A stretch of DNA of 64,000 nucleotides, from NCBI GenBank assembly GCA_011170375.1, contig DUEV01000001.1:186001-250000 (forward strand). The letters run 5' to 3'. This DNA comes from Dehalococcoidia bacterium (GTDB lineage Bacteria > Chloroflexota > Dehalococcoidia > Dehalococcoidales > Fen-1064). The first letter of the stretch is position 1. Each line of letters opens with the position of its first letter. The position numbers and the translations under genes are program-made. The notes under the pieces were generated by a model. That model worked only from the letters and a program-made list of their open reading frames with translations. It searched no databases and was not told the origin of the DNA. This document shows, piece by piece, positions 5,979-41,621 of this stretch.

Positions 5979-6033
5979 TTAAGCTGAACCTCGATTAAGT
6001 GATAACTGTGTATAAAGCAGGGAGGAAATAGGT

Positions 6034-7239
6034 ATGACCGGCATATTGGACGGAATACGTGTTGTTGAATTTGCTGCTATGGGCGGAGGTCCCCTGGCCG
6101 GGCTCCTTCTGGCGGATTTCGGTGCTGAGATAATCAAGATTGAGAATCCCGTAGGCGGCGACCCAAGCCGGATTATGTTCCAGCCTCGAGAACGCAAAAT
6201 ACCCCCGGAAAATCACAGCATCTTATACGAATTCAGCAATAGACATAAGAAGAGCGTCACCCTGAATCTATCCCACGAGAAGGGTCGGGAAATTGCCTAT
6301 AAACTCATCGGGACGGCAGATGCCTTTTTCAGCAATTATTTTCCCAGAACCCTCGAGAAAATGGGATTCGACTACGAAAATTTATCGAAAATCAATCCGA
6401 GAATTGTATATGTGACGTCCCCTGCCTTCGGGAAATACGGCCCGGACAGGGACAAGCAAGCCTACGATCCGATGGCCATGGCTAGATCAGGGATGCTGAT
6501 GGCTATCAGCGGGACTGCTGAACCGGGTTCAATGGTTCCCGGAGCTATGGCTGATATGATGGGGGGTACTTTCTTGGGCTTCGCTGTTATGTCGGGCGTA
6601 CTGGCTAGGGAACGCTACGGGATAGGACAGGAGATTGATTCCTCCCTGTTCGGTCCAATGCTGTGGGCTCAGTATCTGAATATATCTGGCTATCTCGCCG
6701 GGAATCCTTTGATGCGAAAAGTACCGAGAAACAGCACCTGGAACCCGATGTCTAACAGCTACAAATGCAAGGACGGGCAATGGATTTTCATCATATCACG
6801 TGACTGGTCTGAGTTATGCCGTGTTCTTCATCTTGAGGAGCTGGAAAAAGATCCCCGGTTTTCGGAAGAAGCATCTAGGGCGAAAAACCGCGGGGAGTTG
6901 ATCTCGATTCTGGATGAGGCGTTTGCTAAAAAGACCCGCGACGAGTGGATTGCCTATTTCAAGACTAGCCAAGCTAACGTGCTGTATGAAGTTATCAATA
7001 CAGTTCCCGATTTAGCCGATGACGTGCAAATATTGGCCAACGAATTAATACTGGAAGAAAATCATCCCGGTCTTGGACCCATTAAGATGTTGAAATTCCC
7101 TTTCAACTTCAGTAAAACACCGGTTGCGACTGCAAGGAATGCTGCCCCATCTCTCGGAGAGCATACGGAAGAGGTGCTCATGGAATTGGGTTATAGTTCG
7201 GAACAAATAGCTCAACTGAAGAATGAGAAGGTGATTTAG
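6034..7239 (+). CDS. CaiB/BaiF-family (class III) CoA-transferase
   Basis: MTGILDGIRVVEFAAMGGGPLAGLLLADFGAEIIKIENPVGGDPSR hallmark N-terminus. Confidence 0.92.
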   Translation: MTGILDGIRVVEFAAMGGGPLAGLLLADFGAEIIKIENPVGGDPSRIMFQPRERKIPPENHSILYEFSNRHKKSVTLNLSHEKGREIAYKLIGTADAFFSNYFPRTLEKMGFDYENLSKINPRIVYVTSPAFGKYGPDRDKQAYDPMAMARSGMLMAISGTAEPGSMVPGAMADMMGGTFLGFAVMSGVLARERYGIGQEIDSSLFGPMLWAQYLNISGYLAGNPLMRKVPRNSTWNPMSNSYKCKDGQWIFIISRDWSELCRVLHLEELEKDPRFSEEASRAKNRGELISILDEAFAKKTRDEWIAYFKTSQANVLYEVINTVPDLADDVQILANELILEENHPGLGPIKMLKFPFNFSKTPVATARNAAPSLGEHTEEVLMELGYSSEQIAQLKNEKVI

Positions 7240-7507
7240 CTTTTACTCATCCTGTGGCACACACCTCGAATGATAAGGTCTTTTAGTGACTATTTCTATG
7301 TCAATATCCAGACTGTGATCCAAGAGACAAAGCGGGGTTATCATAAGCCCTTGGTCACTGGTTCGAACCTCCCACTCCTCTTACTATCGGAGACTTCATT
7401 CTCTGGGGAGCATACTCTGCACATCGAAAAGTAATTCCTCAGTCGTAAGAAAAGCCGAAGGCAACCAATTGGCGGGTCCTAGCTCTCGCCAGTGATACGG
7501 GGGTCCA

Positions 7508-22558: not shown

Positions 22559-23404
22559 CTAGTCGGACTTCTTTTCTTCTTCCAGCAGGTCACCGAAGAC
22601 CTCGGCGTGGTATATCTCGTTATCGCGCAGGCGCAGGAATAGCTTCTTGAGCTTGGCGTCAGTTGTCTTGTTGGCGGCCTGGTCATAGGCATCGGCCACC
22701 TCGTTCTCTATATTGATGTCGGCGCTGAGCATGTCACTTGTCTTGGTCGATTTGTCGACCTCAGTATGCTCGATAATCGGAGTGCCGCCCATGTCGATTA
22801 CCTTTTCGGCCAGCCAGCCCAGGTGCTGCATCTCGTTGATTGCTTGGTCTTCCAGTTCTTCGGCAGCCTCTTCATTGGGTGTTATATACCTCTGGAGGAG
22901 GTACTGAAGGATAACGGTATACTCATGCTCAATGCCCCAGTTGAGAGTCCTGATAGTATCGTCGCTCTTCGTACCTCTGACATCTTCCATGGCCTCTCTA
23001 TGTGACTTCTCAACAAAGTGTTCGAAATCACCCCGGTGGGCTTCTTCGTCGGAGAGGATACGCCGCAATAGTCTCTTTATCTTCGGATCATCAATGGCTT
23101 CAATGTGCTCCTTGTATTGGGCGATGGCACCCTCTTCGAGAGAGACGTTATTCACCATCCAATCGTGGACAGATGCCCCGCCCATCTTCATGGTGCCGCG
23201 TTCCAGGCTGGGGACTCCGCCCAGTTCAGCAACAGTTTCCGCCAGCCAGTCCAAGTGTCGCATCTCATCACGTGCCATTGCCTCAATCTCACAGGCCATC
23301 TCTCCTTCACCCATTCCATACGCATGGGTCAGGTACTGGATGATAGCGCCGTGCTCGTCTTGAATATCTTTGTTCAGTAGTTCAATGACCTTTTCTTTGT
23401 CCAT
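22559..23404 (-). CDS. Ferritin-like/bacterioferritin-like protein with two tandem domains
   Basis: Repeated ExxH motifs: AIIQYLTHAYG...MARDEMRHLDWLAE and VILQYLLQRY...AINEMQHLGWLAEKV. Confidence 0.85.
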   Translation of the reverse strand: MDKEKVIELLNKDIQDEHGAIIQYLTHAYGMGEGEMACEIEAMARDEMRHLDWLAETVAELGGVPSLERGTMKMGGASVHDWMVNNVSLEEGAIAQYKEHIEAIDDPKIKRLLRRILSDEEAHRGDFEHFVEKSHREAMEDVRGTKSDDTIRTLNWGIEHEYTVILQYLLQRYITPNEEAAEELEDQAINEMQHLGWLAEKVIDMGGTPIIEHTEVDKSTKTSDMLSADINIENEVADAYDQAANKTTDAKLKKLFLRLRDNEIYHAEVFGDLLEEEKKSD

Positions 23405-23480
23405 CAGTCCCTCCTATAAAGTTTGAGATATTAGTGTCTTATTAGGATATGCTGCAACTCCTGATAGCTAGCCGTATTCT

Positions 23481-23861
23481 CTAGCCGGCGGACTTCCACA
23501 GGCCGTGAACACTGCAATATTCCCGGGCGGTTGCTTTCTGTCCTTTGGCCTCGAAGACTGCTTCCGGCTTTTCTCCCGGCTTGAGGAAGTGTCGGCAGGA
23601 CTCGCCGTCAATGGTCAGTTCCACCCACTCGATATAGTGTTCGGCTTCCATGGGATGCGGTACTTCGCCTACTTTCACTTTGGTACCACTGTCGCTTGCT
23701 TCCACCACCGGGACGTGCTTTTCCAGACCGACGTCGCTGGTTTTCTCCTGAAGCAGCTCCATGGGTTGACCGCAGCAGACCAGTTGCCCAGCTCCGGCAT
23801 GCAGCACCTCGACGATATTACCGCAGACATTGCACTTGTAAATCCGTTTTTGTTCTGCCAT
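23481..23861 (-). CDS. dfx: Desulfoferrodoxin / superoxide reductase
   Basis: YKCNVCGNIVEVLHAGAGQLVCCGQPMELL; EKHVPVVE; PMEAEHYIEWVEL; EYCSVHGLWKS. Confidence 0.95.
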   Translation of the reverse strand: MAEQKRIYKCNVCGNIVEVLHAGAGQLVCCGQPMELLQEKTSDVGLEKHVPVVEASDSGTKVKVGEVPHPMEAEHYIEWVELTIDGESCRHFLKPGEKPEAVFEAKGQKATAREYCSVHGLWKSAG

Positions 23862-23905
23862 TTTCTATCTCCCCTCCTTCGTTATTTCTGGCAGTATGCT
23901 GAATC

Positions 23906-24067
23906 TTAGTCCATTTTTTCAAAATCGCTCTTGGCGGCCCCGCAGACGGGGCACTCCCAGTCGTCAGGTAGTTCATCAAACGGTGTCCCTGGTTCTATCC
24001 CATTGTCTGGGTCACCGAGTTCCGGGTCGTAGATGTAGCCACAAACTGTGCACTCATATTTGTCCAT
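23906..24067 (-). CDS. Rubredoxin (53 aa, below the ORF-track cutoff)
   Basis: Manual translation: [53 protein letters not shown]. Confidence 0.95.
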
Positions 24068-24076
24068 TTTACCGAC

Positions 24077-24607
24077 CTAACCTCCATCCAGCGAAGGGTG
24101 TTCTTTTTGAGCAAACCACTGGACCGGGTCCTTCAGGTAATCATAGTAGTCTCGCAGAAGCTGATGGTGCACTGTTTCCTCAGCAGCGACCGCTTCATAG
24201 AAATCTTTCTCGGCGGCGAAGGTCGCGGTGCGGCTCCGGGCTTTGTAGAAATCGTAGCTCTTGTTTTCCATGTCCATCGCGGTATCAACAGCTTCAAGTT
24301 CGGTAGTCAGGGCAGTGATGCCTGTGCCAAGCTTTTCTACCTGCTGGGCAAAAAGAGTCTTCAGATGCTGCTCCCCCGTGGATTCGAGCTTAATATTGGG
24401 CCAGGACTTTTTCTGCCGGAGTGTCTGGTATATCTGCTCGAACTTCTGACGGTGAAGGTCTTCTTCGGCGGACAAGCTCTCCAGTAGCTTCCGCCCCATC
24501 TCATTGCTACTTTCATGACTGGCCTTCAGGTAGAAATCCTTGCCGTCAATCTCCATCTGCACGGCGACACGCAGCCCTTCCAGGGTCTTTTCGTTCTCGC
24601 TTACCAT
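24077..24607 (-). CDS. Rubrerythrin/ferritin-like protein
   Basis: ExxH motifs (AEEDLHRQKFEQIY; AAEETVHHQLLRDYYDYL); clustered with rubredoxin and desulfoferrodoxin. Confidence 0.8.
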   Translation of the reverse strand: MVSENEKTLEGLRVAVQMEIDGKDFYLKASHESSNEMGRKLLESLSAEEDLHRQKFEQIYQTLRQKKSWPNIKLESTGEQHLKTLFAQQVEKLGTGITALTTELEAVDTAMDMENKSYDFYKARSRTATFAAEKDFYEAVAAEETVHHQLLRDYYDYLKDPVQWFAQKEHPSLDGG

Positions 24608-26376: not shown

Positions 26377-26637
26377 ATGAAGCTGGTGGTTGGATTCTTT
26401 ATTGGAACATTATTTGCAGGGCTTATCTTGGGTTTAATCAGCGGTGGAATTTCGGTTGCCCAAACCGATGGTGATTCTGACCTCACGACGTTGCTACCTG
26501 ACATCGGTAAAATCTACCGCACGTCGCTGGCTTCTCCATTTCAACAGGTAGAACAGGAAATAGAAGATGAAGATATCGCTAACTTCTATCACCGACTGAT
26601 GGAGAGGACCGGACTTACCCAGTTACCAGAAGAGTAG
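26377..26637 (+). CDS. Small membrane-anchored hypothetical protein
   Basis: RBS aaggagga upstream of ATG 26377; MKLVVGFFIGTLFAGLILGLISGGISVAQ. Confidence 0.5.
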   Translation: MKLVVGFFIGTLFAGLILGLISGGISVAQTDGDSDLTTLLPDIGKIYRTSLASPFQQVEQEIEDEDIANFYHRLMERTGLTQLPEE

Positions 26638-26752
26638 GCTGCCGGTCTGCTGTGGAAGTCCTTACCCCTTGCTTATAACTGCCCCTGCTTTGCAAACCAT
26701 GCTTAGATGACCGAACCATAGCTGGCATGTTCGTTTATCAAGTATTTATTGT

Positions 26753-26782
26753 GCTGAACCACCTGTATATCGGTGGTTCAGC
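26753..26782 (+). terminator. Rho-independent-like terminator
   Basis: GCTGAACCACC-TGTATATC-GGTGGTTCAGC followed by ttcattttgactt. Confidence 0.65.
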
Positions 26783-26964
26783 TTCATTTTGACTTCACTG
26801 TGCCAGTCCCCTAACTTTTGCAGGTTAACTGTGCCTTCCACAGGTGCGTCTTGTTGATTTCCGAGATACTGTATGCCTGATACAGGAGTGGGTGTACCAG
26901 GGAACCAACATCACGAGCCAAAAGGCTCACGTAATAGGACCCAAAAGTGGCTGTTTCGCAGAGT

Positions 26965-26976
26965 TACTAATTAGTA
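26965..26976. promoter_or_regulatory. Candidate operator in the AT-rich leader of the first HTH/archaellum gene
   Basis: Perfect 12-bp palindrome TACTAATTAGTA followed by related ATTAGATTAGTA half-sites. Confidence 0.35.
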
Positions 26977-27161
26977 CGATTAGATTAGTAAAGAACTATA
27001 TTGGTCAGCGTTAATCAGTAAACACCTAAATAAGACATATACAAGGCTAATAATACTGATAATAAACCTATAGATACGTAATAGGCTTAAAAGAATTATA
27101 TACAGCCATCTTGTAAAACTTGGGTAGATATAAGACAAAGATAGAGATGGAGGCCTGATAC

Positions 27162-27410
27162 TTGAGAGGTAAGCCAAAAAGAGAGATGGTGCTGGACGGC
27201 GATGCCATCATGACAAGTGCCGAAGTTGCCGAATTCCTCAAGGTGCACCTTGGTTCAGTCAGGCGTTGGAGTCGCAGTGGCAAGTTGAAGGGATATCGTT
27301 TGGGGGAGCGTGGCGACTGGAGGTATCTCCGAGAGGACGTGATGGATTTCTTTTACGACTATAACAGACTAATATCGGAAGGAGGTGATGCTGTGGCCAA
27401 AATGAGATAG
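27162..27410 (+). CDS. Small excisionase/MerR-type helix-turn-helix DNA-binding protein
   Basis: MTSAEVAEFLKVHLGSVRRWSRSGKLKGYRLGERGDWRYLREDVMDFF; annotated start is TTG/later starts possible. Confidence 0.85.
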   Translation: MRGKPKREMVLDGDAIMTSAEVAEFLKVHLGSVRRWSRSGKLKGYRLGERGDWRYLREDVMDFFYDYNRLISEGGDAVAKMR

Positions 27411-27508
27411 CAGGCTACAATAGCAGGCTACGGGTACCTGCAATGCCCATGCAGGTATCAAAGACACAAGGCATTCAACCACCCAAAACCTATGAAAAGG
27501 AGGAATCA

Positions 27509-28123
27509 ATGCTGAAAAGATTAATGAAGATGTACCGAGGCGAGAAGGGCATTACCGGTCTGGAAACGGCCATCATCCTGATTGCATTCGTGGTAGTTGC
27601 CTCTGTATTCGCCTACACTGTCCTCTCGGCGGGTATTTTCTCGTCCCAGAAGGGCAAGGAAGCTATCTATTCCGGTCTTGAGGAGGCCAGGGCTTCCGTG
27701 ACGCTTAAGGGCAGCGTCGTTGCTGAGGACACTGATAGTGACGATGACATCGACCAGCTGGTGTTCGTCGTGGCCACCGCACTGGAAGGCGAAGCGATTG
27801 ACTTCACAATACCGACCGACACCACACCCGCAGATGGGATAGCTGACGATGGTAGTTCCAATGTATGTGTGATTTCGTACTCTGACCAGACCCAGCGGGT
27901 AGATGACCTGGACTGGAGTTTTAGCCCGCTTGGTAAGGATGATGGTGATTCTCTACTCGAGCCTGGAGAGAAATTCGAAATCACCATTGACCTGAGTGCC
28001 ATGGACGGGGATATCGTTACTTACACCACCTTCTCGATAGAGGTCAAGCCGCCGAAGGGTAGTGTACTCATCGTCGAGAGAACGACCCCTGGCGTAATCG
28101 ATGATGTCATGATCCTGAACTAA
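27509..28123 (+). CDS. Archaellin (archaeal-type flagellin), class III signal peptide
   Basis: RBS aaaggagg; MLKRLMKMYRGEKG|ITGLETAIILIAFVVVASVFAYTVLSAGIFSSQKGKEAIYSGL; C-terminal KGSVLIVERTTPGVIDDVMILN is archaellin-like. Confidence 0.92.
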   Translation: MLKRLMKMYRGEKGITGLETAIILIAFVVVASVFAYTVLSAGIFSSQKGKEAIYSGLEEARASVTLKGSVVAEDTDSDDDIDQLVFVVATALEGEAIDFTIPTDTTPADGIADDGSSNVCVISYSDQTQRVDDLDWSFSPLGKDDGDSLLEPGEKFEITIDLSAMDGDIVTYTTFSIEVKPPKGSVLIVERTTPGVIDDVMILN

Positions 28124-28170
28124 TGAGTATTGACATCGGAACCACCTGAACAAAGGAAAAGGAGGAATCA

Positions 28171-28845
28171 ATGCTGAAGAGATTTTTTAAGATGCACCGG
28201 AGCGAGAAAGGCATCACCGGTCTGGAAACAGCCATTATCCTGATTGCGTTTGTGGTTGTTGCCTCCGTTTTCGCCTACACAGTCCTGTCGGCTGGTATAT
28301 TCTCGTCTCAGAAGGGCAAGGAGGCCATCTACTCCGGTCTCGATGAGGCCAGGGCGTCTCTGGAGCCAAGAGGTAGCATGTATGCTTACGAAGGTACGGT
28401 GGGTACTACCGATACCGCGGTCAAACTATCCTTTACACTGACCACAGCTCTCAGCGGACAGGCCATAGACCTGACGCCGCCATATACTGCTAGTGCTACT
28501 GACCTGACAGCCAGTGGATTGGACCACGTCTGTCTCGTGTCGTTCATTGACGAGAACCAGCTCATCCCTGATGCCGCCTGGACGATTGATTTTGTCGGCA
28601 AGAACAACGGTGACTACCTGCTGGAGTCAGAGGAAAAGGCCGTAATCACGGTATGGCTGGCTGACTATGCTACTTCCGCTTATGCACTGGGTACCGATGA
28701 CACCGACCCCTTCATTGATGCTGATGCTGACTTGCTTGATATCTACGACATCTTCACCGTTGAGGTACGGGCCGAGAAGGGCGCTGTGCTCGTGCTGCAG
28801 CGCACCTTGCCTGGGCGCTTCGATGCCGTTATGGACCTGAACTAA
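28171..28845 (+). CDS. Archaellin, second tandem copy
   Basis: MLKRFFKMHRSEKG|ITGLETAIILIAFVVVASVFAYTVLSAGIFSSQKGKEAIYSGLDEARASL; C-terminal KGAVLVLQRTLPGRFDAVMDLN; same RBS context. Confidence 0.92.
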   Translation: MLKRFFKMHRSEKGITGLETAIILIAFVVVASVFAYTVLSAGIFSSQKGKEAIYSGLDEARASLEPRGSMYAYEGTVGTTDTAVKLSFTLTTALSGQAIDLTPPYTASATDLTASGLDHVCLVSFIDENQLIPDAAWTIDFVGKNNGDYLLESEEKAVITVWLADYATSAYALGTDDTDPFIDADADLLDIYDIFTVEVRAEKGAVLVLQRTLPGRFDAVMDLN

Positions 28846-28894
28846 GGAATGGCCTGTTATTTGACTCTAGAAGTATGAGCTGAGAGGAGAGAAA

Positions 28895-29668
28895 ATGGAG
28901 CAAAGGATCCAGGACCTGGAAGAAGAGTTGAAACTGCTTAAGAACCAGATAAAAGCGGTCCTGCTCGACATAAAAGAGAACCTGGCTAATGGCGAATGGC
29001 AGGAACTCTCTTCTCGGTGGGGATACGAGGCTGCTGGTCAGACTCAAGAACTGTCTGGCCAGCAGCCAGTGGAGTCCCATTCTACACCAGAAGTGACTCA
29101 GGAGTCGAACCCTGCGTCTACTACGGTCACAGTTGATATGGGGGAACCGGCTCGGCAACAGGCTGAGCCGGCCCCCCCCCTCTTCAGGAGTGAACCTGTG
29201 AATCTGCCTCAAGCTGCTCCTGCCAATGGTAATAGAAAGGATAATGACTACCCAAATAGTCAACCAGACTTGTTAACCGTCGTTATGCTCGGACAGTGGC
29301 TCGACCGGGCGGTCGCTACTGTCGGTAAGAACGAGACAGAAAAGATTATCGAAATGTATGACATTACCGGGAATCTACCGGTACAGATGAAAAAGACCCT
29401 GCTATTACTTATCGATTCATGTGAGAAAAATGAGGGGAGTACCAGAAGAAGTAGCAAGCATAGTATAGGGTTGACCAGCTACTCGCTTCTCATGGATATG
29501 GACAGCCTTTTAAGATATCGGAACCGGGCACTTGAGGCGGCTGTGCTCTCTCTGCTCGCCGAAAGACAATGTCAGCGGAATAAGGACCAGAGTCCAAGAC
29601 AGTCCCGGCAGAAAAAGGAGAGCGAAAACAGCCAAGACGCGCATTATGTAGGAGCCCTCGATGGATAA
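28895..29668 (+). CDS. ArlC/D/E-like archaellum accessory protein: N-terminal coiled coil, linker, ArlCE-like domain
   Basis: Coiled coil MEQRIQDLEEELKLLKNQIKAVLLDIKENL; DLLTVVMLGQWLDRAVATVGKNETEKIIEMYDITGNLPVQMKKTLLLLID resembles the FlaCE-domain pattern (xxLxxWLxxxVxxVGxxxxxxxxxxYxxxG). Confidence 0.65.
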   Translation: MEQRIQDLEEELKLLKNQIKAVLLDIKENLANGEWQELSSRWGYEAAGQTQELSGQQPVESHSTPEVTQESNPASTTVTVDMGEPARQQAEPAPPLFRSEPVNLPQAAPANGNRKDNDYPNSQPDLLTVVMLGQWLDRAVATVGKNETEKIIEMYDITGNLPVQMKKTLLLLIDSCEKNEGSTRRSSKHSIGLTSYSLLMDMDSLLRYRNRALEAAVLSLLAERQCQRNKDQSPRQSRQKKESENSQDAHYVGALDG

Positions 29669-30176
29669 AGCCCTGAGTACCATTCTCCTTGTCATCGCTT
29701 CCCTGGTCTGTGCGGTTCTGGCAATTAACGCCATATATCCGGCGACCAGTATCTCCAGTGGTGCGCTCGGTAGTGCGTCAACTCAAATGGGCGATCGCAT
29801 AAAAAGCCAAATAAGTATCGTACACTCTGCCGGAGAGCTGGATGACAGCGGCGTATGGCAGGACACCAACTCAGACGGTAATTTTGATGTGTTCATATGG
29901 GTGAAAAACATAGGAGGTACCACTGTAGATAACGCAGAGAATTGTGACCTCTTTCTTGGTGGAGACGATGGGAGCTGGTTACGAATATCGCATGAGGACT
30001 GGGCTGGTGGAGAATTGCCAAGCTGGAACTACACTATTGACAGCGGCACTGAATGGGGTCGGGAGACCACCATGATGATTGAGGTAAGCTTCGAGAGCGC
30101 TCTGTCTTCAGGGGAATATCGCATCAAGTTGATTATACCTAATGGAATTTCCGATGAATACTACTTCAGTATGTGA
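29661..30176 (+). CDS. ArlG-like archaellum stator protein
   Basis: Single N-terminal hydrophobic helix (STILLVIASLVCAVLAINAIYPATSISSGAL) then beta-rich domain; position before an ArlF-like gene and arlH. Confidence 0.75.
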   Translation: MDKALSTILLVIASLVCAVLAINAIYPATSISSGALGSASTQMGDRIKSQISIVHSAGELDDSGVWQDTNSDGNFDVFIWVKNIGGTTVDNAENCDLFLGGDDGSWLRISHEDWAGGELPSWNYTIDSGTEWGRETTMMIEVSFESALSSGEYRIKLIIPNGISDEYYFSM

Positions 30177-30706
30177 CCGCGATGAGTACTGTCATTACTA
30201 CACTGGTTATGATTGCCATGCTGCTAACATCAGGCCTGGCGATGGCACAGAGTTCTTTAACATCAATGGACTACATTGCCCAGTGTTGGAAAGAGACTGA
30301 AAGCGCGGCCCAGGAAACATCAAGAACTGATATTTTGGCATTAGGTGCTCAAACAGCCGGGGGCTTTGTCGAAGTCCCCATTGATAATAGCGGTAGTATA
30401 CACATAGCACAGTTCCCCAACTGGGATGTGCTTGTTCACTACTATGACGGTAACGGCGATTATTACATCGTTGAAACTGAATATGCCGAGGGGACTACCC
30501 CAGGCGATAACCAGTGGTCCGTGGCTGGTATATACACCGACGATACGCTGGGACAGAACGAGGTATTCGAGCCCGGGATATTAAACCCGGGTGAAGTCAT
30601 GTTACTGAGAGTGAACCTAGTGCCAACACCTTATGGAGGGACAGTGTGCTGGGTTACTGTGTCCACACCGAGCGGTGTGACGACCTCAGTACAATTTGTG
30701 GTTTAG
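30173..30706 (+). CDS. ArlF-like archaellum stator protein
   Basis: N-terminal helix STVITTLVMIAMLLTSGLAMAQSSLTSMDYIAQCWKE then beta-rich domain; overlaps arlG-like stop. Confidence 0.7.
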   Translation: MTAMSTVITTLVMIAMLLTSGLAMAQSSLTSMDYIAQCWKETESAAQETSRTDILALGAQTAGGFVEVPIDNSGSIHIAQFPNWDVLVHYYDGNGDYYIVETEYAEGTTPGDNQWSVAGIYTDDTLGQNEVFEPGILNPGEVMLLRVNLVPTPYGGTVCWVTVSTPSGVTTSVQFVV

Positions 30707-31427
30707 GAGACTGCGAGTGGAGAAACTGGAGAAAAAGGATATCGGCCTGATATCTACCGGGAATGACGAGCTGGACAAGAAAATCGGGGGAGGGATACCA
30801 CCCAATTCCCTTAGCCTGATAGAGGGGCAGCCTGATTCTGGTAAATCTGTCCTGTCTCAGCAAATGATATGGGGTTCTCTTAGAAACGGGTACAAGGTGG
30901 CCATCTTCACTACGGAGAACTCAGTGAGAAGTCTCCTCACACAGATGCAGAGCTTGAATCTGGATGTAACTAATTACCTCCTGCTTTCCCGTCTTCAGAT
31001 TTTTCCGGTGGATGCTAGGAAGACAGCCGGCAATCTGAATACCGGACTGGCTCCCATGGTCGCGAATTGTGCGTTGAGAGGGTTCGACCTGGCAGTGATA
31101 GACTCTCTTACATACTATGTCACCCATGTTGGCGTCGCTGAACTGATTACGTTTTTCGAGGAGATGAAGGCTCTGAATGGGAAGGGATTGAGCGTACTAT
31201 GCAGTGCTCACTCCTATGCTTTTGAAGAGGGTACGCTTATCAGAATTGGAGCCATGTGTGACGCTCATCTGAGACTGCGTATGGAGACAATGGGGGCCAA
31301 GCTGATAAAAATCCTAGAGGTAGCCAAGGTCCGTGGTGCCGTCCAGAAGACCGGTAATATCGTCTCTTTTGATGTCGAACCAAATTGGGGCATCAAGGTT
31401 ATACCATATTCGAAGGCGAGGGCTTAA
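30696..31427 (+). CDS. arlH: ArlH, KaiC/RecA-like archaellum ATPase regulator
   Basis: ISTGNDELDKKIGGGIPPNSLSLIEGQPDSGKSVLSQQMIWG (Walker A), LAVIDSLTYYVTHV (Walker B region). Confidence 0.88.
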   Translation: MWFRRLRVEKLEKKDIGLISTGNDELDKKIGGGIPPNSLSLIEGQPDSGKSVLSQQMIWGSLRNGYKVAIFTTENSVRSLLTQMQSLNLDVTNYLLLSRLQIFPVDARKTAGNLNTGLAPMVANCALRGFDLAVIDSLTYYVTHVGVAELITFFEEMKALNGKGLSVLCSAHSYAFEEGTLIRIGAMCDAHLRLRMETMGAKLIKILEVAKVRGAVQKTGNIVSFDVEPNWGIKVIPYSKARA

Positions 31428-31436
31428 TAGACTGAT

Positions 31437-33164
31437 ATGCCAAGGATAATTCTACCATTCGGTGAGCAAATAGATGGAGAAAAAAAGGGGAATCGAGTTA
31501 GCACCGAATTGTATCAGCAGCTATCCGAACCCTTCAGGGAAGCCTGCGAGAACAATAGCCATCTCGCAGACTATGTCGGGATTTGTGTTGCTGCCGAAAT
31601 AGAGATTCCTGAATTTATTAACAATCTCAAACGGTCTGATGGAGACCGCGAGAGCAAAAATCTGATTTATCAGGCCTCGGATAACATATTCGTCCATGTT
31701 TTCTCCAGTGCTTCCAATGACAGGGATGTATATGTCCCAATAGAGCCGGGAATGACTGAGGACATGAGTCAGGTAATGCTTAATGTTGAGAACCGACTGC
31801 TTGATATTGCGGGCGAGCTTGAGGAAGCAGAAACGGATGAGGAGCGGACTGAGGGGATACTGAAGTGTCTCAAAAAAGTATGCATGATTGGTCGTAACGG
31901 CTCGAGGCCCAATTCGAATGATGGCAAGTCCGAAAGTAATAGCAGACAGAAGGTAAGGGTGACTAAGGAGCAGTTCGATGCCCTTCAGTACCTTCTTATC
32001 AGGGACAAGATTGGTATGGGGGCTATGGAACCATTGATTGTCGACCCAAATATTGAAGACATCAGTTGCAGCGGTATCGGGCCAATATTTGTTGAGCATA
32101 AGATATTTAAGAGCTTGGCTTCAGCGATAGTATTTGAGAGTCATGAGGAGCTGGACGATTTCGTCTTACGTCTTTCCGAGCACATCAGAAAGCCAGTTAC
32201 GCTGCGAAAGCCTATTGTTGACGCCACCCTACCTGACGGTTCTCGTATCAATATTGTATACGGGCGGGAGATATCCCGGCGGGGCAGCAATTTCACCATC
32301 AGAAAGTTTGCCGGTGTCCCTTTAAGCATAATGGAGCTTATCGAATTCGGTAGCATTAACTACGAAATGGCTGCTTATATGTCGCTGATTCTTGAAGACG
32401 GCATGAACGTATTTGTTGTTGGCGAGACTGCCTCGGGGAAGACCACTCTTCTTAATGCTTTGACTACCTTCATCCCGATAAACAATAAGATTGTCAGTAT
32501 CGAAGATACCCCTGAGCTTCAGGTGCCTCATGCTAACTGGCTTCGTGAAGTGGCTAATGCCTCTGGAGGCGATGAAAAAGAGGCCAAAGTAAGCATGTTC
32601 GAGCTACTGAAGGCCGCCCTCAGGCAGCGACCTAATGTTATAGTCATTGGTGAGATTCGTGGAGAGGAAGGGAATATTGCCTTTGGTGCCATGCAGACAG
32701 GCCATGCTGTAATGTCTACCTTCCATGCCGCTTCCGTGGAAAAGGTCATCCAGCGTATCACCGGCAATCCGATAAATGTTCCCAAAACACACGTGGACAA
32801 TCTGAACGTGGTGGTAGTCCAGAACGCGGTCAAGCTGCCGAATGGTAAGAATGGGCGGCGGGCATGTAGTATCAGTGAGATAGTCGCCTACGACCCTCCT
32901 TCTGAGTCTTTTAACTACGTTGAGGTATTTCGCTGGGACCCAGCCACAGACGAGTTCAATTTCGTCGGGAGCCGTAACAGTTACCTTTTGGAAGACAGGA
33001 TTGCTATTCGGCGCGGTATCCCGGCTGACCGCAAATGGGAGATATATAGTGTACTGGACAGAAGAGCGCGGATTCTGGAGAGACTTCATAAGGACAAAGG
33101 AGTAACCAATTTCTATGAACTTCTTAACGTTCTGGCGAAGGCGCAAGAGCAGGGTCTCTTTTAA
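31437..33164 (+). CDS. arlI: ArlI, type II/IV secretion-superfamily motor ATPase
   Basis: VVGETASGKTTLLNAL Walker A, IVSIEDTPELQVPH, RPNVIVIGEIRGEEGNIAFGAMQTGHAVMSTFHA. Confidence 0.95.
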   Translation: MPRIILPFGEQIDGEKKGNRVSTELYQQLSEPFREACENNSHLADYVGICVAAEIEIPEFINNLKRSDGDRESKNLIYQASDNIFVHVFSSASNDRDVYVPIEPGMTEDMSQVMLNVENRLLDIAGELEEAETDEERTEGILKCLKKVCMIGRNGSRPNSNDGKSESNSRQKVRVTKEQFDALQYLLIRDKIGMGAMEPLIVDPNIEDISCSGIGPIFVEHKIFKSLASAIVFESHEELDDFVLRLSEHIRKPVTLRKPIVDATLPDGSRINIVYGREISRRGSNFTIRKFAGVPLSIMELIEFGSINYEMAAYMSLILEDGMNVFVVGETASGKTTLLNALTTFIPINNKIVSIEDTPELQVPHANWLREVANASGGDEKEAKVSMFELLKAALRQRPNVIVIGEIRGEEGNIAFGAMQTGHAVMSTFHAASVEKVIQRITGNPINVPKTHVDNLNVVVVQNAVKLPNGKNGRRACSISEIVAYDPPSESFNYVEVFRWDPATDEFNFVGSRNSYLLEDRIAIRRGIPADRKWEIYSVLDRRARILERLHKDKGVTNFYELLNVLAKAQEQGLF

Positions 33165-34608
33165 CGAGGGCCCACTGAGCTTTGATTTGCTCTATCAGCT
33201 GTCATATATGTCGGCTATATCGACGGCTGGCCTGCCGCGCAGCCAGATTTTTGCATTGGGTGCTCAGTTACCCTGCAGCGCAGCGAATTATATCGCTGAA
33301 ATCCAAAACCTGTCACAGAAGTGGCGCTATGATTATGCAGTCGCCTGCCGTATGGTAGGGGAGTCGTCCAAGAAAGAAGCGGTCAAGAGTCTGCTTCTCC
33401 GCCTGGCGAGCTCTCTTAACTCCGGTGAGCCTGAGTCAACCTTCCTAGACCAGGAAGCACGGATCCAGGCCGAAGCCTTCAATAGTGACTACGAACGTCG
33501 TGTCGAGTCACTGAGAAAGTGGACTGAGGCGTATGCTGCACTGGTTGTCTCGGCGGCCTTGATAGTGATGGTGGCGGCTGTCTCCATGCTGATATATCCC
33601 ATTGCGGCAGGATTCACCTTTGCGTTGGCTGGTGTTACCGTTGTTGTTGGTGTGGTGGGGGCGTGGTGCGTCTATGTGGCGTCGCCAAAGGAAGTAAGAG
33701 TGCACTCGCCATCTCAGTATTGTCCTGCCTTTATCCGGGCTAACCGGTGGGAGCGTATGCTGGTACCAGCGGCATCGGTCGCCCTGGTCCTCATACTGGC
33801 GGCAGGTATGGAATTGGGGTTTGCTATTCTGGCGGCATCTATCTTGCTTCTCCCCATAGGTATCTTCGGCACGATGTGCGAACGTCAGATAAGTAATAAA
33901 GACAGGGACATCCATACCTTCCTGAGGTCACTGGGAAACGTGACCTCAGCGATAGGGATAACGACTTCCCAAGCAGTCGGAAGATTGGACCTCAGATCAA
34001 CTGCTGCCCTGGCCGAAGATGTTAAGCGTCTTCGTTCCCGGTTGGCTTCAAGATTGAAGCCTGACCTCTGTTGGAAACGTTTTTCCCTGGAGACAGGTAG
34101 TGAGTTGATATACCGGAGTATCAGGATGTTTCATGATGCTACCAGGCTGGGTGGCGAGGCAGACGTCGTGGGAGAGCGGTCGTCTATTTTGGCGATGAGT
34201 CTTGACTTCCTCCGTGCCAAAAGAGGCCAGGTGTCCTCGTCTTTCACCTGGCTGGCAATAGGCGTGCATGGAGCTATTGTCGGTTTGCTGGTTTTTGTGT
34301 CACAGGTGGTGTCAGCTTTCGCAGGGGTTGTTGAGGGTGTCTATGAAGAAGCACTGGCGGAAGCCCCGGTCAGGACAGTAGAGATATTCAGCTTCAGCTT
34401 CCAGAGTGTGCCGATACTGAAGAACCTGACTCTGCCTTGTCTGCTGATACTGGCAGCGACAACCGCCTTTGCTGCTAACGCAGCCGCCGGTGGCTCTCGT
34501 TATAAACTTTACCTCTACCTTGGTGCGACCTTTGGCTTATCTGGAGCAGCTATGCTAGTAGTCCCGGCAATGACGGATATGATATTTGCCTCGGTGTCAG
34601 TCATGTAG
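33115..34608 (+). CDS. arlJ: ArlJ, archaellum platform membrane protein
   Basis: Multi-TM protein directly after arlI with overlapping start; LLYQLSYMSAISTAGLPRSQIF N-terminal region and type II secretion F-like layout. Confidence 0.85.
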   Translation: MNFLTFWRRRKSRVSFNEGPLSFDLLYQLSYMSAISTAGLPRSQIFALGAQLPCSAANYIAEIQNLSQKWRYDYAVACRMVGESSKKEAVKSLLLRLASSLNSGEPESTFLDQEARIQAEAFNSDYERRVESLRKWTEAYAALVVSAALIVMVAAVSMLIYPIAAGFTFALAGVTVVVGVVGAWCVYVASPKEVRVHSPSQYCPAFIRANRWERMLVPAASVALVLILAAGMELGFAILAASILLLPIGIFGTMCERQISNKDRDIHTFLRSLGNVTSAIGITTSQAVGRLDLRSTAALAEDVKRLRSRLASRLKPDLCWKRFSLETGSELIYRSIRMFHDATRLGGEADVVGERSSILAMSLDFLRAKRGQVSSSFTWLAIGVHGAIVGLLVFVSQVVSAFAGVVEGVYEEALAEAPVRTVEIFSFSFQSVPILKNLTLPCLLILAATTAFAANAAAGGSRYKLYLYLGATFGLSGAAMLVVPAMTDMIFASVSVM

Positions 34609-34626
34609 AAAAAGACTGAAGGAGAT

Positions 34627-35280
34627 TTGATTATGGCTAACCAGTCTATTTTATTGGCGATACGAAGAATGTGGGAGTACTTTACCGTGCCTCCACCGGG
34701 TGACCTCGGTTTTGCCTCCGAGGAACGTGACCCCGTTGGGGAATTCCTGGAGCAACAGAGCCGGGGGGGAGGTATGATTGAGGCTGAAACTGAGGCTGAG
34801 ATTGAGGCTGAGGAAGTATTGCCGGTGAGTAATTATGAACCAGAGGATGAGAGTAGCCAGGCTGCTGCGGACATGAGTCCATCACCGGTCGATAATCTTG
34901 AAGCTGAGCCGACTACTAGCCCTAATGAGTCTGAGAGTGAGGTACTGCCACCAGCAGCCGATATGAGCCAAAACGAAACCGAGGGTGAGGTGATTCTAGA
35001 GATGACGGATAGCAAAGCGGACCAGGCTGAAAATGAGGAAGAGGCAAAGTTAGATGATGTGGCTCCGGATGAGACTGGGGAGAAAGTGGCGGAAGAAGCT
35101 ACCAAAGAGGGTAATCAGGAGGGGGGGGATGACCTGCTGGATATCTTCCGGAGTGAAAAAGAGGTGAAGCAGAGCGACACTCTTCACGACAGCCTAGCTG
35201 ATATAGATATCCAGGAACTTCTCGAAGAAGGCAGAGACCTTCTGGCTGATATTAATGCGAGACGCTATAGAAGGACATGA
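34627..35280 (+). CDS. Acidic low-complexity protein, last co-directional gene of the archaellum locus, function unknown
   Basis: Complete ORF 18 nt after arlJ with aaggag RBS; Glu-rich repeats EAETEAEIEAEE; C-terminal SLADIDIQELLEEGRDLLADINARRYRR. Confidence 0.6.
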   Translation: MIMANQSILLAIRRMWEYFTVPPPGDLGFASEERDPVGEFLEQQSRGGGMIEAETEAEIEAEEVLPVSNYEPEDESSQAAADMSPSPVDNLEAEPTTSPNESESEVLPPAADMSQNETEGEVILEMTDSKADQAENEEEAKLDDVAPDETGEKVAEEATKEGNQEGGDDLLDIFRSEKEVKQSDTLHDSLADIDIQELLEEGRDLLADINARRYRRT

Positions 35281-35371
35281 GGTTCGTGGGTTAGTTGGTT
35301 GTAGTGGTGTATGCCGCCTTCCGTGAGTGTCACTACAGAGCAGATATCAGGTGCTCTTCCACATTCCGGTA

Positions 35372-35914
35372 TCAGACACTAGTGTCAGCTATGTCGGCAG
35401 TCCTGTTTCTTGTGACCGCTTCAATAACCCCATAGGCGGACCCGACTACTTCTGCCTCACTGGTAGTCGTCTTTGCCAGAGTTGTGTCAAAATCACTTCT
35501 GGTAGTGACTGTGTCCTTGGGGATAGCATTAATACATTCACTCAGGACACTTATATGGGTGTCCAGGCGCTCAAGCAGCAGTGATATCGCTTGTTGCAAG
35601 TCCTGTCCGAATATTATGGCAATCTCTCTCATGCGCCGACCTTTTCTTCTCATTGCCACGAAACGGTGCCGCATTTGGCCGAGATGATGAAGTGTGAATG
35701 AGCGTAATTGCTCAATGTCTTTTACCTGGTTCATGTTGTCGCTGAACCCGCACGAGATTACCTCCGTAGCCCATTCCTCAATTTCCAGTAGTCGCTTCAA
35801 CTTCTGGTCACTTTGTCGTGTCTTACTCACCCGGCTGATGCGCAGCAGCACCATTAGAAAGAGCAGGACAGAGCCCACCATCGCTAGAAGGCCCAACAAA
35901 TCAGAGGTTTCCAT
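35372..35914 (-). CDS. Membrane-anchored alpha-helical hypothetical protein
   Basis: One N-terminal TM helix (LLGLLAMVGSVLLFLMVLLRI) and long helical region; convergent to the archaellum operon. Confidence 0.55.
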   Translation of the reverse strand: METSDLLGLLAMVGSVLLFLMVLLRISRVSKTRQSDQKLKRLLEIEEWATEVISCGFSDNMNQVKDIEQLRSFTLHHLGQMRHRFVAMRRKGRRMREIAIIFGQDLQQAISLLLERLDTHISVLSECINAIPKDTVTTRSDFDTTLAKTTTSEAEVVGSAYGVIEAVTRNRTADIADTSV

Positions 35915-36124
35915 GCTGGGATTATATCATGCCAGAGATATCATACTAAAGACTGAGATATTGCTATGCTTGGACTTGCGAGGTCGGTCATGATATGTGC
36001 GATGTAGGTCTCGACAAAACAAGTATTTATACTGTAAAATATAGATAAGAAGATAAAAATAACATTTGTAACCGTAATGTAACACCATCTGACGTATTTT
36101 AACCCTACCTTAACATCAGTACGC

Positions 36125-36146
36125 TATACTGTGATTAGGGAGTATA
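36125..36146. promoter_or_regulatory. Inverted repeat upstream of the second HTH gene (candidate operator)
   Basis: TATACT-gtgattaggg-AGTATA in AT-rich leader. Confidence 0.3.
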
Positions 36147-36197
36147 AAGGGAAGTTTTATCACCTTAAAAATCATCAGGTGGAAGGAGAGTGGGAGT

Positions 36198-36422
36198 GTG
36201 GTAGAGAGTGGAGTGGAAAAGCAACTAGACTGGAATGATGATGTTATCATGACAAGCAGTGAAGTTGCCAAATTCCTCAAGGTGCATCTTGGTTCGGTCA
36301 GGCGCTGGACACGCACCGGAGAGCTGAAGGGATACCGTTTAGGTGAGAGGGGTGACTGGAGATACATCCGTGGGGACGTGCTTAATTTTCTCTTTAAGTA
36401 CAGTCAAACAGCTTCGAAATAA
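36198..36422 (+). CDS. Small excisionase/MerR-type helix-turn-helix protein, paralog of 27162..27410
   Basis: MTSSEVAKFLKVHLGSVRRWTRTGELKGYRLGERGDWRYIRGDVLNFL. Confidence 0.85.
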   Translation: MVESGVEKQLDWNDDVIMTSSEVAKFLKVHLGSVRRWTRTGELKGYRLGERGDWRYIRGDVLNFLFKYSQTASK

Positions 36423-36567
36423 GATAATTACCGATAATAACCCCATACACAATATATAGATTCCTCTATCTGCCTGAGTGGCCATGGAAGGGAGTTGCTT
36501 TTCTTCCATACGGTTGGTTTCCTTGGGTGTTGGCCGGAGTGCGAGGTCACCGTGTTCCGGTCAAGAC

Positions 36568-36602
36568 AAAAAACGGGCTCCAGACTATCTCTGGAGCCCG
36601 TT
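36568..36602 (-). terminator. Rho-independent terminator downstream of the phosphofructokinase gene
   Basis: 13-bp stem AACGGGCTCCAGA-ctatc-TCTGGAGCCCGTT with an A-run (T-run on minus strand) at 36568-36573. Confidence 0.85.
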
Positions 36603-36653
36603 AGCGTTCTGACGGGGATAGGGGAGAGTCGAAATCTTTTGTCGGTTCTTTGA

Positions 36654-37802
36654 CTAGGCTGTAGCCAGCATCCCGGCTTCAGCACGGGGCTTCATATTAC
36701 TGAGAATTGTCCTTCTCCCGTTGTATCTTTCAACATCGTACTGCGTCGTGATATCCACCTGAGTTGGTTTTCCGATAACGGCCGATAGAGGGACAGCCGT
36801 AATCTGGCCGTTCTTGTAGCTGACCATCTTACCGAAATTCTCTGTAGCTACCAGATCAACGGCGGCTATCCCAAAGTACCGCCCCATCCTTCTGTCGTAT
36901 GCGCCGGGAGCACCACCGCGCTGCAAATGACTGAGGACAACACTTCGACATTCGAGACCGGTGTTATTTGAGATTTGATTTGCCAGGAATTCGCCAATAC
37001 CACCAAGAGCCTTGTGCCCAAAGCTGTCCAGACCGTTTTCTTTAACTAACTCCACACCCCCCAACGGCCTGGCTCCTTCTGCTACCAGAATAATGTCATA
37101 CCTTGCCCCCGATTTTCTCCCTTCTAAGACCAGCTCGCATACCTTTTCAGTGGAGAAATCACACTCAGGGATGAGGATGATATATGCCCCACTGGACTCT
37201 CCCCCTTCCAAGGCCAGCCAGCCGGCATGTCTACCCATTGTCTCTACGACAAATGTCCGTTTATGAGAGCCGGCGGTAGTCCTCAGTCTATCAACTTCTT
37301 CAACGATAACGTTCAGGGCAGTATCAAACCCAAGTGTATAATCAGTTTTGGGAAGGTCTTTATCAATGGTCTTCGGTATACCAACAACGTTCACCCCGTC
37401 TCTGGACAGTTTGTAGGCGACACCCAGCGTATCCTCACCACCGATGGCTATAACTGCTTTCAGGCCCAGTCTCTTTATGTTGTTGAGTACTACTTCTGAG
37501 CGGTCGTTGTTAGGATCATAGGGATTTGTTCTTGAGGTCCCGAGGAAGGTACCGCCGTATCTGTCCCAGGTTCTGACCGTTTTTTCATCCAGAGGCTCGA
37601 GATATCCATCAGCGGCCAGGTTATCAGGGTCGGCTCGGACCAGCCCTTTCCACCCGTCGTGTATTCCAATTACTTCGTATCTGACACCCCTTTCCCACTG
37701 GAGTCTTTCATCAAGGGCCGTTTTTACCACCCACTTGATGGCAGGGCTCAGCCCGGCACAGTCTCCACCTCCGGTGAGGACGCCAATTCTCTGCCTGTTC
37801 AT
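36654..37802 (-). CDS. 6-phosphofructokinase, probably PPi-dependent type
   Basis: RIGVLTGGGDCAGLSPAI; IGGEDTLG and PKTIDKD (Asp and Lys typical of PPi-PFK); HLQRGGAPGAYDR. Confidence 0.9.
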   Translation of the reverse strand: MNRQRIGVLTGGGDCAGLSPAIKWVVKTALDERLQWERGVRYEVIGIHDGWKGLVRADPDNLAADGYLEPLDEKTVRTWDRYGGTFLGTSRTNPYDPNNDRSEVVLNNIKRLGLKAVIAIGGEDTLGVAYKLSRDGVNVVGIPKTIDKDLPKTDYTLGFDTALNVIVEEVDRLRTTAGSHKRTFVVETMGRHAGWLALEGGESSGAYIILIPECDFSTEKVCELVLEGRKSGARYDIILVAEGARPLGGVELVKENGLDSFGHKALGGIGEFLANQISNNTGLECRSVVLSHLQRGGAPGAYDRRMGRYFGIAAVDLVATENFGKMVSYKNGQITAVPLSAVIGKPTQVDITTQYDVERYNGRRTILSNMKPRAEAGMLATA

Positions 37803-39123: not shown

Positions 39124-40413
39124 ATGACAGAAGAAAAACTAGATCCGAGTGAACTAATCAAACCCGGCACGGCACCGGATGTCGGCCCTTATCCCTGGCC
39201 TGAAATCTGGGAAAAGCTGTCGCCTGACATCAAGGCGGTTATCGAACGCTATGCCAGGATGCCCGAAGATCATCCTAAGCCGAAGGGTTTGCGCCCTCTC
39301 GCCATGGTCGATGCCCGCTTCCCCATGTACTACCAGACCTCGGTAAAGCAAGGCATGAGCCTATTGACCGACTACTTCGCCGCCATGGCGAGCCGTGACA
39401 TAGAAGGCGTGGCCGACACGTTGCACTTCCCCTACGCCACCTTCGACGAAATCTTTGGTGAAGTGGATCCCATCGTGTACAAAACGCCTGATGATTTTAT
39501 AAGTAATCCGCCCCCTTCCATGAGGGTGGGTACTGGCATAGACGCCACGCTGAAGCCGGGCACTTATGACATCCTCGACAACATGCAGTTGTTGATGTAC
39601 TCGCCGATTCATGCTGGACTGGAGCTGACCTATACGCGGTATCGGGGAGACGGCCAGAAGCTTGGCACAAGCCAGGGCATTTATGGTGTGACGAATAATG
39701 ACGGCAAATGGGGAATCCAGCTCTCTTCCTTGCTGTACACACAGGCGGGCTGGGAAAATGTCGCTCGCGATGACGTGGAGGCCGTGCTGTATAATAACGA
39801 GCGCAATACGATGTGGGGCTACAACATCATTCCCTGGCCGGGTGTGGGCTCGACGCAGGAACTGATTGACCTGCGAGGTCTGGGTGGCTCGGCCGAAGAA
39901 GGGGAGGAGGTCGTCGAACTGCGTACCGCCAATCTGCGTTTGCCGTGGACCGTGCAATGGTTGTATTCCTCTCGCGGTGGTGCTCCCATGTCTCCCTACA
40001 ACTACAAGGGCGTTAGGGACCGGCTGCGCGTCGCTGAACCCGGGATGACGAGACGGACTGGCGGGGTTAATGGTGGCAGCACCGATGGGATACTTGGCAA
40101 TTCCCCTCTGATTGGCGACGAGGAGACACCAGGTTTATTCTTTAGTGTTGCCGGTCAAGGGGTGGGCCGCTGGGCCTATTCGCTGCCGCTGCACGATGTA
40201 CGCGTGCTGCACGCTTCTATGAACAAGGCCCACATAATTGGGGGTTATGTTCGTTTTACCGCCGATGGGCACCAATCATGTGAGCTCAGGAGCTTGGGCG
40301 TGATGGCGTACCGGCGTGGCCGTTGGGAAAGGGCCGGCGGTCTCGGCGGGATGGTCCGTCGTGATTGCACGAATGACCCGATACAAGAAGCCTATTATAG
40401 TGAGTTCTGCTGA
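39124..40413 (+). CDS. Hypothetical protein, possibly containing SnoaL/NTF2-like domain(s)
   Basis: Complete ORF with RBS aaaggagag; GMSLLTDYFAAMASRDIEGVADTLHFPYATFDE resembles an NTF2-like N-terminal helix. Confidence 0.5.
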   Translation: MTEEKLDPSELIKPGTAPDVGPYPWPEIWEKLSPDIKAVIERYARMPEDHPKPKGLRPLAMVDARFPMYYQTSVKQGMSLLTDYFAAMASRDIEGVADTLHFPYATFDEIFGEVDPIVYKTPDDFISNPPPSMRVGTGIDATLKPGTYDILDNMQLLMYSPIHAGLELTYTRYRGDGQKLGTSQGIYGVTNNDGKWGIQLSSLLYTQAGWENVARDDVEAVLYNNERNTMWGYNIIPWPGVGSTQELIDLRGLGGSAEEGEEVVELRTANLRLPWTVQWLYSSRGGAPMSPYNYKGVRDRLRVAEPGMTRRTGGVNGGSTDGILGNSPLIGDEETPGLFFSVAGQGVGRWAYSLPLHDVRVLHASMNKAHIIGGYVRFTADGHQSCELRSLGVMAYRRGRWERAGGLGGMVRRDCTNDPIQEAYYSEFC

Positions 40414-40507: not shown

Positions 40508-40863
40508 TGGTGGAGACGGGGGAGAGTTGAACTCCCCGTCCAAAGGAAGCTGTCCAGAATATCCTACAGGCTTAGTCAGCTCTTTGATCTCACCCGGCTG
40601 GCCCCTGCTGACCGGGTCCAGGCAGGCCAGTCGATTTCTCTTTCACCGCCTTAGTCGACCCTGGGGCGGTGGCACCCCGACTTTTCGTCACCCACTCCCC
40701 ACCCGCCGGGGTGGGGTAGGGGTGGATGTGCTGCCTATTTAATTAGGCGGCAACTAGTACTGGTTCTTTGCCAGTTATCTTTTGCCACTTGTTTAATGAG
40801 GGTAGCGGCAACCTCAGCCTGCAATCCTGTAACATACTTCCCCTGTCGAAACCACGCGTCCCC
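40508..40863 (-). ncRNA. ssrA: Transfer-messenger RNA (tmRNA)
   Basis: 5' GGGGACGCGTGGTTTCGAC pairs with 3' CGTCTCCACCA (7-bp acceptor stem); T-arm GGACGGGGAGTTCAACTCTCCCC; tag ORF GKEPVLVAA* at 40743-40772; located next to smpB. Confidence 0.95.
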
Positions 40864-40892: not shown

Positions 40893-41357
40893 TCACCTCC
40901 TCGGACCGACCTTAGTTTTAACGGCGCGCTCTAGAACCCGGTCTGTCTCCCGACGCATTATTGTTTCACGCTTGTCATAGAGCTTCTTGCCCCGGGCGAG
41001 CGCCACCTCCAGCTTGGCAATGCTATCTTTAATATACAGTCGTAACGGCACCAGAGTAAAGCCCTTTTCTGCCACCGTGCTGGTGAGGCTGGTAATCTCC
41101 TTGCGGTGTAGCAGGAGCTTGCGTGGCCGGGTAGGCTCGTGGCCGAGGTAGCTGCTTGCCTGATAGCGAGCGATATGGGCGTTCAGCAGCCACAGTTCCC
41201 CGTTTTCGGGGCGCACGTAGGCATCGCCCAGGCTGACCCGGCCGGCGCGGATTGACTTTATCTCCGAGCCGGTAAGCACCAGTCCGGCCTCTACGGTGTC
41301 CATGATATGATAATCACGGCGGGCTTTACGATTGGTAGCAACTGCTTTAATAGGCAT
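40893..41357 (-). CDS. smpB: SsrA-binding protein SmpB
   Basis: NRKARRDYHIMDTVEAGLVLTGSEIKSIRAGRVSLGDAYVRPENGELWLLNAHIARY; start MPIKAVATN at 41357 preferred over the ORF-track start. Confidence 0.97.
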   Translation of the reverse strand: MPIKAVATNRKARRDYHIMDTVEAGLVLTGSEIKSIRAGRVSLGDAYVRPENGELWLLNAHIARYQASSYLGHEPTRPRKLLLHRKEITSLTSTVAEKGFTLVPLRLYIKDSIAKLEVALARGKKLYDKRETIMRRETDRVLERAVKTKVGPRR

Positions 41358-41621
41358 TGTCCTACTTAAATGATAACACAATAGAAAAGGGACATAAATA
41401 TGGAGACGGGTTGACAGAGCGTGGCGGAATAAGGAAACATGGAATATTTCCTCCACATAAAGCATGAATGGATTGACGGCAGTACCTAAAGGGTATTAAT
41501 ATTGGCCAGGTAAATTTGTAAATGCACTTGACGAATCGAATCTTCTCACCAGGCAGGACACCGGCTGTTCCGTATCTTTCTGCACTTCACCCCACAAAAA
41601 AATACTTGGGATGAGGTTGAA

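Follow-up and report, generated by a model that had tools for sequence, protein, structure and literature searches.

A probable functional archaellum operon in a Dehalococcoidales bacterium of the Chloroflexota, and a conserved gene behind its arlJ

The window analyzed here, 64,000 nucleotides of a Dehalococcoidia genome (assembly GCA_011170375.1, contig DUEV01000001.1, positions 186,001 to 250,000), carries at 27162–35280 on the plus strand a tightly packed operon of the arl2 type, the genes of which mostly overlap or lie tens of bases apart. In order they specify an HTH_17 protein, two archaellins, an ArlC/D/E-like protein, ArlG, ArlF, ArlH, ArlI, ArlJ and a product designated X2. With its B-B-CDE-G-F-H-I-J order this is very probably a functional, horizontally acquired archaellum operon of a Dehalococcoidales bacterium. 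An earlier sequence-only reading had named the set from the archaellins to ArlJ, and all of these genes were recovered where it had placed them with family models, the ArlC/D/E-like protein giving the weakest match. Its co-directional block of 27162–36422 holds as far as 35280; beyond that lies a minus-strand gene (X3, 35372–35914), and 36422 is the end of a second helix-turn-helix (HTH) gene (36198–36422, plus strand) outside the block.

The gene products were compared with Pfam and NCBIfam, and several also with the PDB. The first (27162–27410), a putative regulator of the operon, is a MerR/excisionase-like DNA-binding protein (PF12728, E=1.2e-12), 98% identical in a sister genome of the same genus, the single-contig 2.3 Mb chromosome CP070842.1 (L009; evidently the same assembly as G013). 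ArlB1 (27509–28123; PF01917, E=2.4e-27; TIGR02537) lies in an open reading frame (ORF) that is open from 27443, its true start likely being 27509, which is preceded by the ribosome-binding site AAAAGGAGGAATCAATG. ArlB2 (28171–28845; PF01917, E=2.5e-20) scores best against the archaellin structure of Litorilinea aerophila (9i5h, 2e-31). Both exceed the cut-offs of PF01917 and TIGR02537, the models for archaellins with a class III (type IV pilin-like) N-terminus, so that the check proposed in the earlier reading returned strong archaellin matches for each.

The product of 28895–29668 possesses an N-terminal helix with a conserved motif, a disordered linker and, in the predicted model, a C-terminal ArlD/E-like helical domain. 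PF04659 matches this C-terminal part weakly (E=0.18) and matches nothing else in the genome, while a structure search with the model found nothing (all E > 0.5). Homologs occupy the equivalent place in Chloroflexota and Methanophagales loci, the N-terminal motif and C-terminal domain recurring in the latter, and by eye the protein preceding arlG in the Thermoprotei locus L027 shows the same layout. ArlG (29661–30176) is identified by NF052591 (1.1e-10) and the FlaG domain structure of S. acidocaldarius (6pbk, 8e-5), and ArlF (30173–30706), situated between ArlG and ArlH, by FlaF_Ig-like (2.9e-5, under the curated cut-off). ArlH (30696–31427), the KaiC-like switch ATPase, scores 251.5 bits against NF004723 (cut-off 194) and 4e-36 against FlaH (4yds). 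The motor ATPase ArlI (31437–33164), with Walker A and B motifs intact, scores 668 bits against NF058587 (cut-off 550) and 2e-129 against 4ii7. The membrane platform protein ArlJ (33115–34608; NF004703, 3e-118), 95% identical in the sister genome, gives strong matches to ArlJ families only, but at 395 bits against a curated cut-off of 570. The ratio of nonsynonymous to synonymous substitution (dN/dS) between window and sister species is 0.03–0.30 for every gene in the locus and in a satellite cassette described below, indicating purifying selection. Promoter and terminator scans of 26600–36700 gave roughly the same yield as shuffled sequence.

The ATPase and platform belong to superfamilies (T2SSE, T2SSF) shared with Tad and type IV pili (T4P), and several T4P-type ATPases are encoded elsewhere in the genome; both traits would fit a misidentified Tad or type IV pilus locus. 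That explanation was rejected, its probability being negligible. ArlI lies above the archaellum equivalog cut-off, and yields 151.6 bits with the TadA model (cut-off 373) and 61.4 with the PilB model (cut-off 676); compared with single proteins it scores 435 bits against FlaI (4ii7), 142 against the Tad protein CpaF and <50 against PilT/PilB-type ATPases. The archaellin, ArlG and ArlH matches speak against it as well, as does the ArlI tree, in which the protein groups with Chloroflexota Arl sequences, away from Tad and T4P ATPases, in agreement with the sequence-only reading.

In this maximum-likelihood tree of 40 ArlI sequences, including the nine archaeal ones available, a branch with support 100/96 separates the bacterial (Chloroflexota) from the archaeal sequences, and the window ArlI falls inside the bacterial group at 98/91, beside Dehalococcoidaceae CSMAG_1190. 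With CpaF as outgroup the root fell within the Chloroflexota, on a very long branch, and no conclusions were drawn from this rooting. By identity the closest archaeal homologs are those of Methanophagales and relatives (50–53%), in line with the published origin of the Chloroflexota archaellum in Methanotecta (PMC12488501). The ArlI of L026, a 3.3 kb contig assigned to Proteobacteria UBA1148, also groups within the Chloroflexota, and this contig is probably mis-binned.

The window has a single arlI. Other Dehalococcoidales loci (L013/L066, L019/L062, L021, L064, L068, L086 of G043 and L091 of G079) carry two in tandem before arlJ, and in the tree these split into one clade of upstream and one of downstream copies (95/89 and 99/97); one old duplication has therefore been retained. 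Both copies keep the Walker A motif and catalytic region, which suggests a motor built of two ArlI types. One metagenome-assembled genome (MAG) of the same family, G009, has besides its dual-arlI locus (L066) a second set on another short contig (L065), with archaellins, arlG, arlF and a partial arlJ closer to the type seen in the window.

Archaella have been reported from 243 Chloroflexota genomes, with the arl2 order, PilD/PibD outside the locus and no CheF, together with a 2.7 Å filament structure and swimming of L. aerophila (PMC12488501, 2025), and archaellum genes from SAR202 isolates (PMC10444878, 2023), as the sequence-only reading had noted for some members of the phylum. The locus is thus not new in kind; it contributes a clear-cut example, backed by a sister genome in one contig. 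It resembles that of L. aerophila in its archaellin, putative arlCDE, arlG-arlF order, arlHIJ, external peptidase and lack of CheF (PMC12488501; 9i5h). It differs in that no pilN/pilO neighbors were found at the window locus (PilN/PilO-based anchoring in L. aerophila is treated in PMC13319060, 2026), and in its two HTH genes, X2 and the satellite archaellin-ArlH cassette, of which the text of PMC12488501 gives no description. SAR202 'Ca. Lucifugimonas' (PMC10444878) likewise has flaB copies followed by flaGFHIJ and extra archaellins elsewhere in its genome, but six tandem archaellins against two in the window; the satellite of the window genome also includes ArlH. Methanophagales-type loci (L014, L015, L017 and L020) share the gene order, the layout of the ArlC/D/E-like protein, the ArlI identity given above and an acidic gene after arlJ, though their hosts are archaea and this acidic gene is only modestly X2-like.

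A chimeric assembly was rejected as far as PFK, at about 37.8 kb, because the order MFS-HTH-arl-X2-X3-HTH-PFK is retained in the independent sister chromosome; no breakpoint appeared in this part of the continuity check that had been called for, and none of the three refuting outcomes named in the sequence-only reading was observed. In the 4.4 kb that come after PFK in the sister, none of the window genes between PFK and smpB was detected, and continuity is independently confirmed only to that point. The tmRNA (40508–40863) and SmpB (within 40893–41465), on which the sequence-only reading had rested the bacterial context, are real.

X2 (34633–35280, plus strand, ORF open from 34627) has an N-terminal amphipathic helix, an acidic linker and a C-terminal two-helix module at roughly residues 170–214. 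It has no relative in Pfam or NCBIfam and no convincing one in the PDB, where weak rows match its low-complexity part. The family shows a variable membrane-anchor-like start, a disordered linker and a C-terminal helical module of about 46 residues. A membrane-type hydrophobic helix begins 10 of the 22 aligned proteins, the start of the window X2 being moderately amphipathic. AlphaFold predicts a disordered middle and a helical C-terminal part, the last helix at pLDDT 92–97 and the whole at 58.8. The sequence-only reading had spoken of unusual accessory genes: the ArlC/D/E-like gene proved ordinary, and the gene after arlJ unusual, yet conserved.

A profile seeded on the last 46 residues of four proteins picked up L068, L019/L062, L064, L021, L018 and L011 (9e-9 to 8e-6) and three further loci (0.005 to 0.012); the matching genes directly follow arlJ or, where that has been relocated, arlI. 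When whole clades were held out, the search, run on about 3,570 ORFs, recovered their members at 1e-13 to 1e-3; the exceptions were L091 and L024 (0.1–0.16) and L023, which was not found. By position and motif, X2 was assigned right after arlJ in 20 Chloroflexota loci, and it accompanies the motor genes in nearly all of the related loci; no such gene was recognized in L022 and L089. Among 400 sampled Chloroflexota genomes eight gave an X2 match below 1e-4, all belonging to the 11 that bear ArlI; seven of these had been used for training, and the remaining one, G318 (1.4e-9), had not; no arl gene appears in the 1.4 kb flanks that were read around its X2. The 389 genomes without ArlI gave no confident match.

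The acidic gene that follows arlJ in Methanophagales loci aligns with X2 by hhalign at a probability of 78% and a score of 24.9 (≤14.9 in 60 column shuffles), while single-sequence searches did not reach significance; to judge by these profiles, the two likely share an origin. X2 as a diverged ArlC/D/E protein was rejected, hhalign giving a probability of 0.1% against the ArlC/D/E-like protein of the same loci. Nor does it match the protein before arlG in L027, which is ArlC/D/E-like and not ArlX. The crenarchaeal ArlX (PMC8978795), compared by description only, has a single N-terminal membrane helix and a cytosolic helical part, as about half of the X2 proteins do, but ArlX replaces ArlC/D/E, whereas X2 co-occurs with an ArlC/D/E-like protein. 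No X2-type gene came up in a literature search confined to article text, and the family, conserved as it is, is apparently undescribed.

We give even chances to the proposal that X2 is a motor part of the archaellum that has so far gone undescribed and that came along with the operon from a donor resembling Methanophagales. It would be flexible and membrane-associated, and its C-terminal two-helix module would dock on ArlH/ArlI/ArlJ, serving either as a tether of the ArlX kind or as a brake independent of chemotaxis. It is unlikely that X2 is an unrelated fast-evolving acidic protein, co-transcribed with the operon and no part of the motor. Its mostly low-complexity and variable sequence would suit that explanation, as would its dN/dS of 0.26, the highest among the operon's own genes. 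Yet its C-terminal module is conserved across families, and in L092 and L093 (at weak scores) X2 remains with arlH-arlI though arlJ has moved. The G318 copy and the lack of confident matches in ArlI-less genomes also count against mere co-transcription.

The satellite cassette lies on contig C3 (L006) of this genome (G000) and comprises an HTH gene (4832–5050), two archaellins (5135–5737 and 5781–6455) and an ArlH gene (6668–7375). The same four genes stand together in the sister genome (L059:3750–6638), with ArlH on the opposite side, and in both genomes the archaellins are preceded by an HTH_17 paralog of 27162–27410. The archaellins and ArlH have a dN/dS of 0.13–0.16 between the two species, which argues that they are maintained. 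On the simplest reading the cassette would provide an alternative filament served by a separate ArlH. The published survey mentions a few genomes with incomplete second loci, which its text does not describe (PMC12488501).

The sequence-only reading had seen neither a prepilin peptidase nor chemotaxis genes in the window, and both were searched for genome-wide. A single prepilin peptidase was found, an A24 enzyme of the bacterial PilD type on contig C10. In JdFR-54, inspection by eye showed a short ORF resembling an A24-type peptidase shortly after the arl locus, two genes past the X2 counterpart (L012:13076–13528). No methyl-accepting chemotaxis protein (MCP), CheF or CheA-sized CheW-domain protein was found genome-wide; the only CheW is a short orphan (G000:C12:153122–153517; L056 10087–10638) beside a histidine kinase and a response regulator. 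The sister genome likewise has one CheW and no MCP. MCPs are missing from 12 of 16 archaellated genomes; the remaining four also encode a CheW-domain protein of CheA size, and three (G005, G079 and G095) have chemotaxis genes on the contig that bears the archaellum locus.

Among the neighboring genes, X3, convergent to the operon, has an N-terminal membrane helix and a dN/dS of 0.14, and among the loci examined occurs only in the sister genome. The second HTH_17 protein is a paralog of the first (61.8% identity, tblastn 1.3e-27) and is conserved in the sister genome. Farther off are a minus-strand oxygen-defence cluster at 22559–24607 (ferritin-like protein, desulfoferrodoxin and rubrerythrin) and a 429-residue protein without a Pfam match (39124–40413) that adjoins the tmRNA.

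Gene identity and order, phylogenetic grouping, purifying selection and the genome-wide presences and absences were computed directly; how the filament is assembled and turned, and what X2 and the satellite cassette do, we infer. The core machine is assumed to run as in archaea and L. aerophila. Archaellins would be processed by the bacterial-type PilD of the cell and inserted into the filament by ArlI on its ArlJ platform; ArlH would flip ArlI from assembly to rotation, and ATP hydrolysis by ArlI would turn the filament, with ArlF and ArlG presumably serving as the stator, a role established for the family. X2 is probably membrane-associated, on the cytosolic side near ArlI/ArlJ, its helical module docking on ArlH/I/J via the flexible acidic linker. 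Because the anchor-like start, this linker and the helical tip suit such a role, it may be a tether, ring element or brake; the loops of ArlJ are rich in positive charge (PMC8978795), and contact with the acidic linker is therefore conceivable. The satellite cassette, separately controlled, would probably give the cell an alternative filament and switch protein. As no chemoreceptor, CheA or CheF was found, a standard chemotaxis array probably does not steer the rotation.

Several points weigh against this account of a working archaellum. The host is an uncultured MAG, 94.7% complete and known from genes alone, so the genome-wide absences are provisional; ArlJ, ArlG and ArlF score under their curated cut-offs; PilD may chiefly serve type IV pili, for which the genome also encodes ATPases; and the role of X2 is deduced from position, co-occurrence and predicted shape. 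The absence of chemoreceptors, CheA and CheF here and in the sister genome would also suit an archaellum-derived filament for adhesion or surface sensing, which needs no chemotaxis, and rotation is not proven by an ArlC/D/E-like ring alone. This is nevertheless very unlikely: the arlF and arlG stators, ArlH and a full-length archaellum-type ArlI are all under purifying selection, L. aerophila swims using such a machine (PMC12488501), and Crenarchaea swim without chemotaxis (PMC8978795).

For a swimming archaellum, the lack of chemoreceptors in most archaellated Dehalococcoidia examined raises the question of what, if anything, steers the cells. If X2 is a true motor part, it would be a missing piece of a much-studied rotary motor, shared by bacterial loci and probably by the archaeal loci nearest to them, and its role could be tested in the cultivable L. 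aerophila, if present there.

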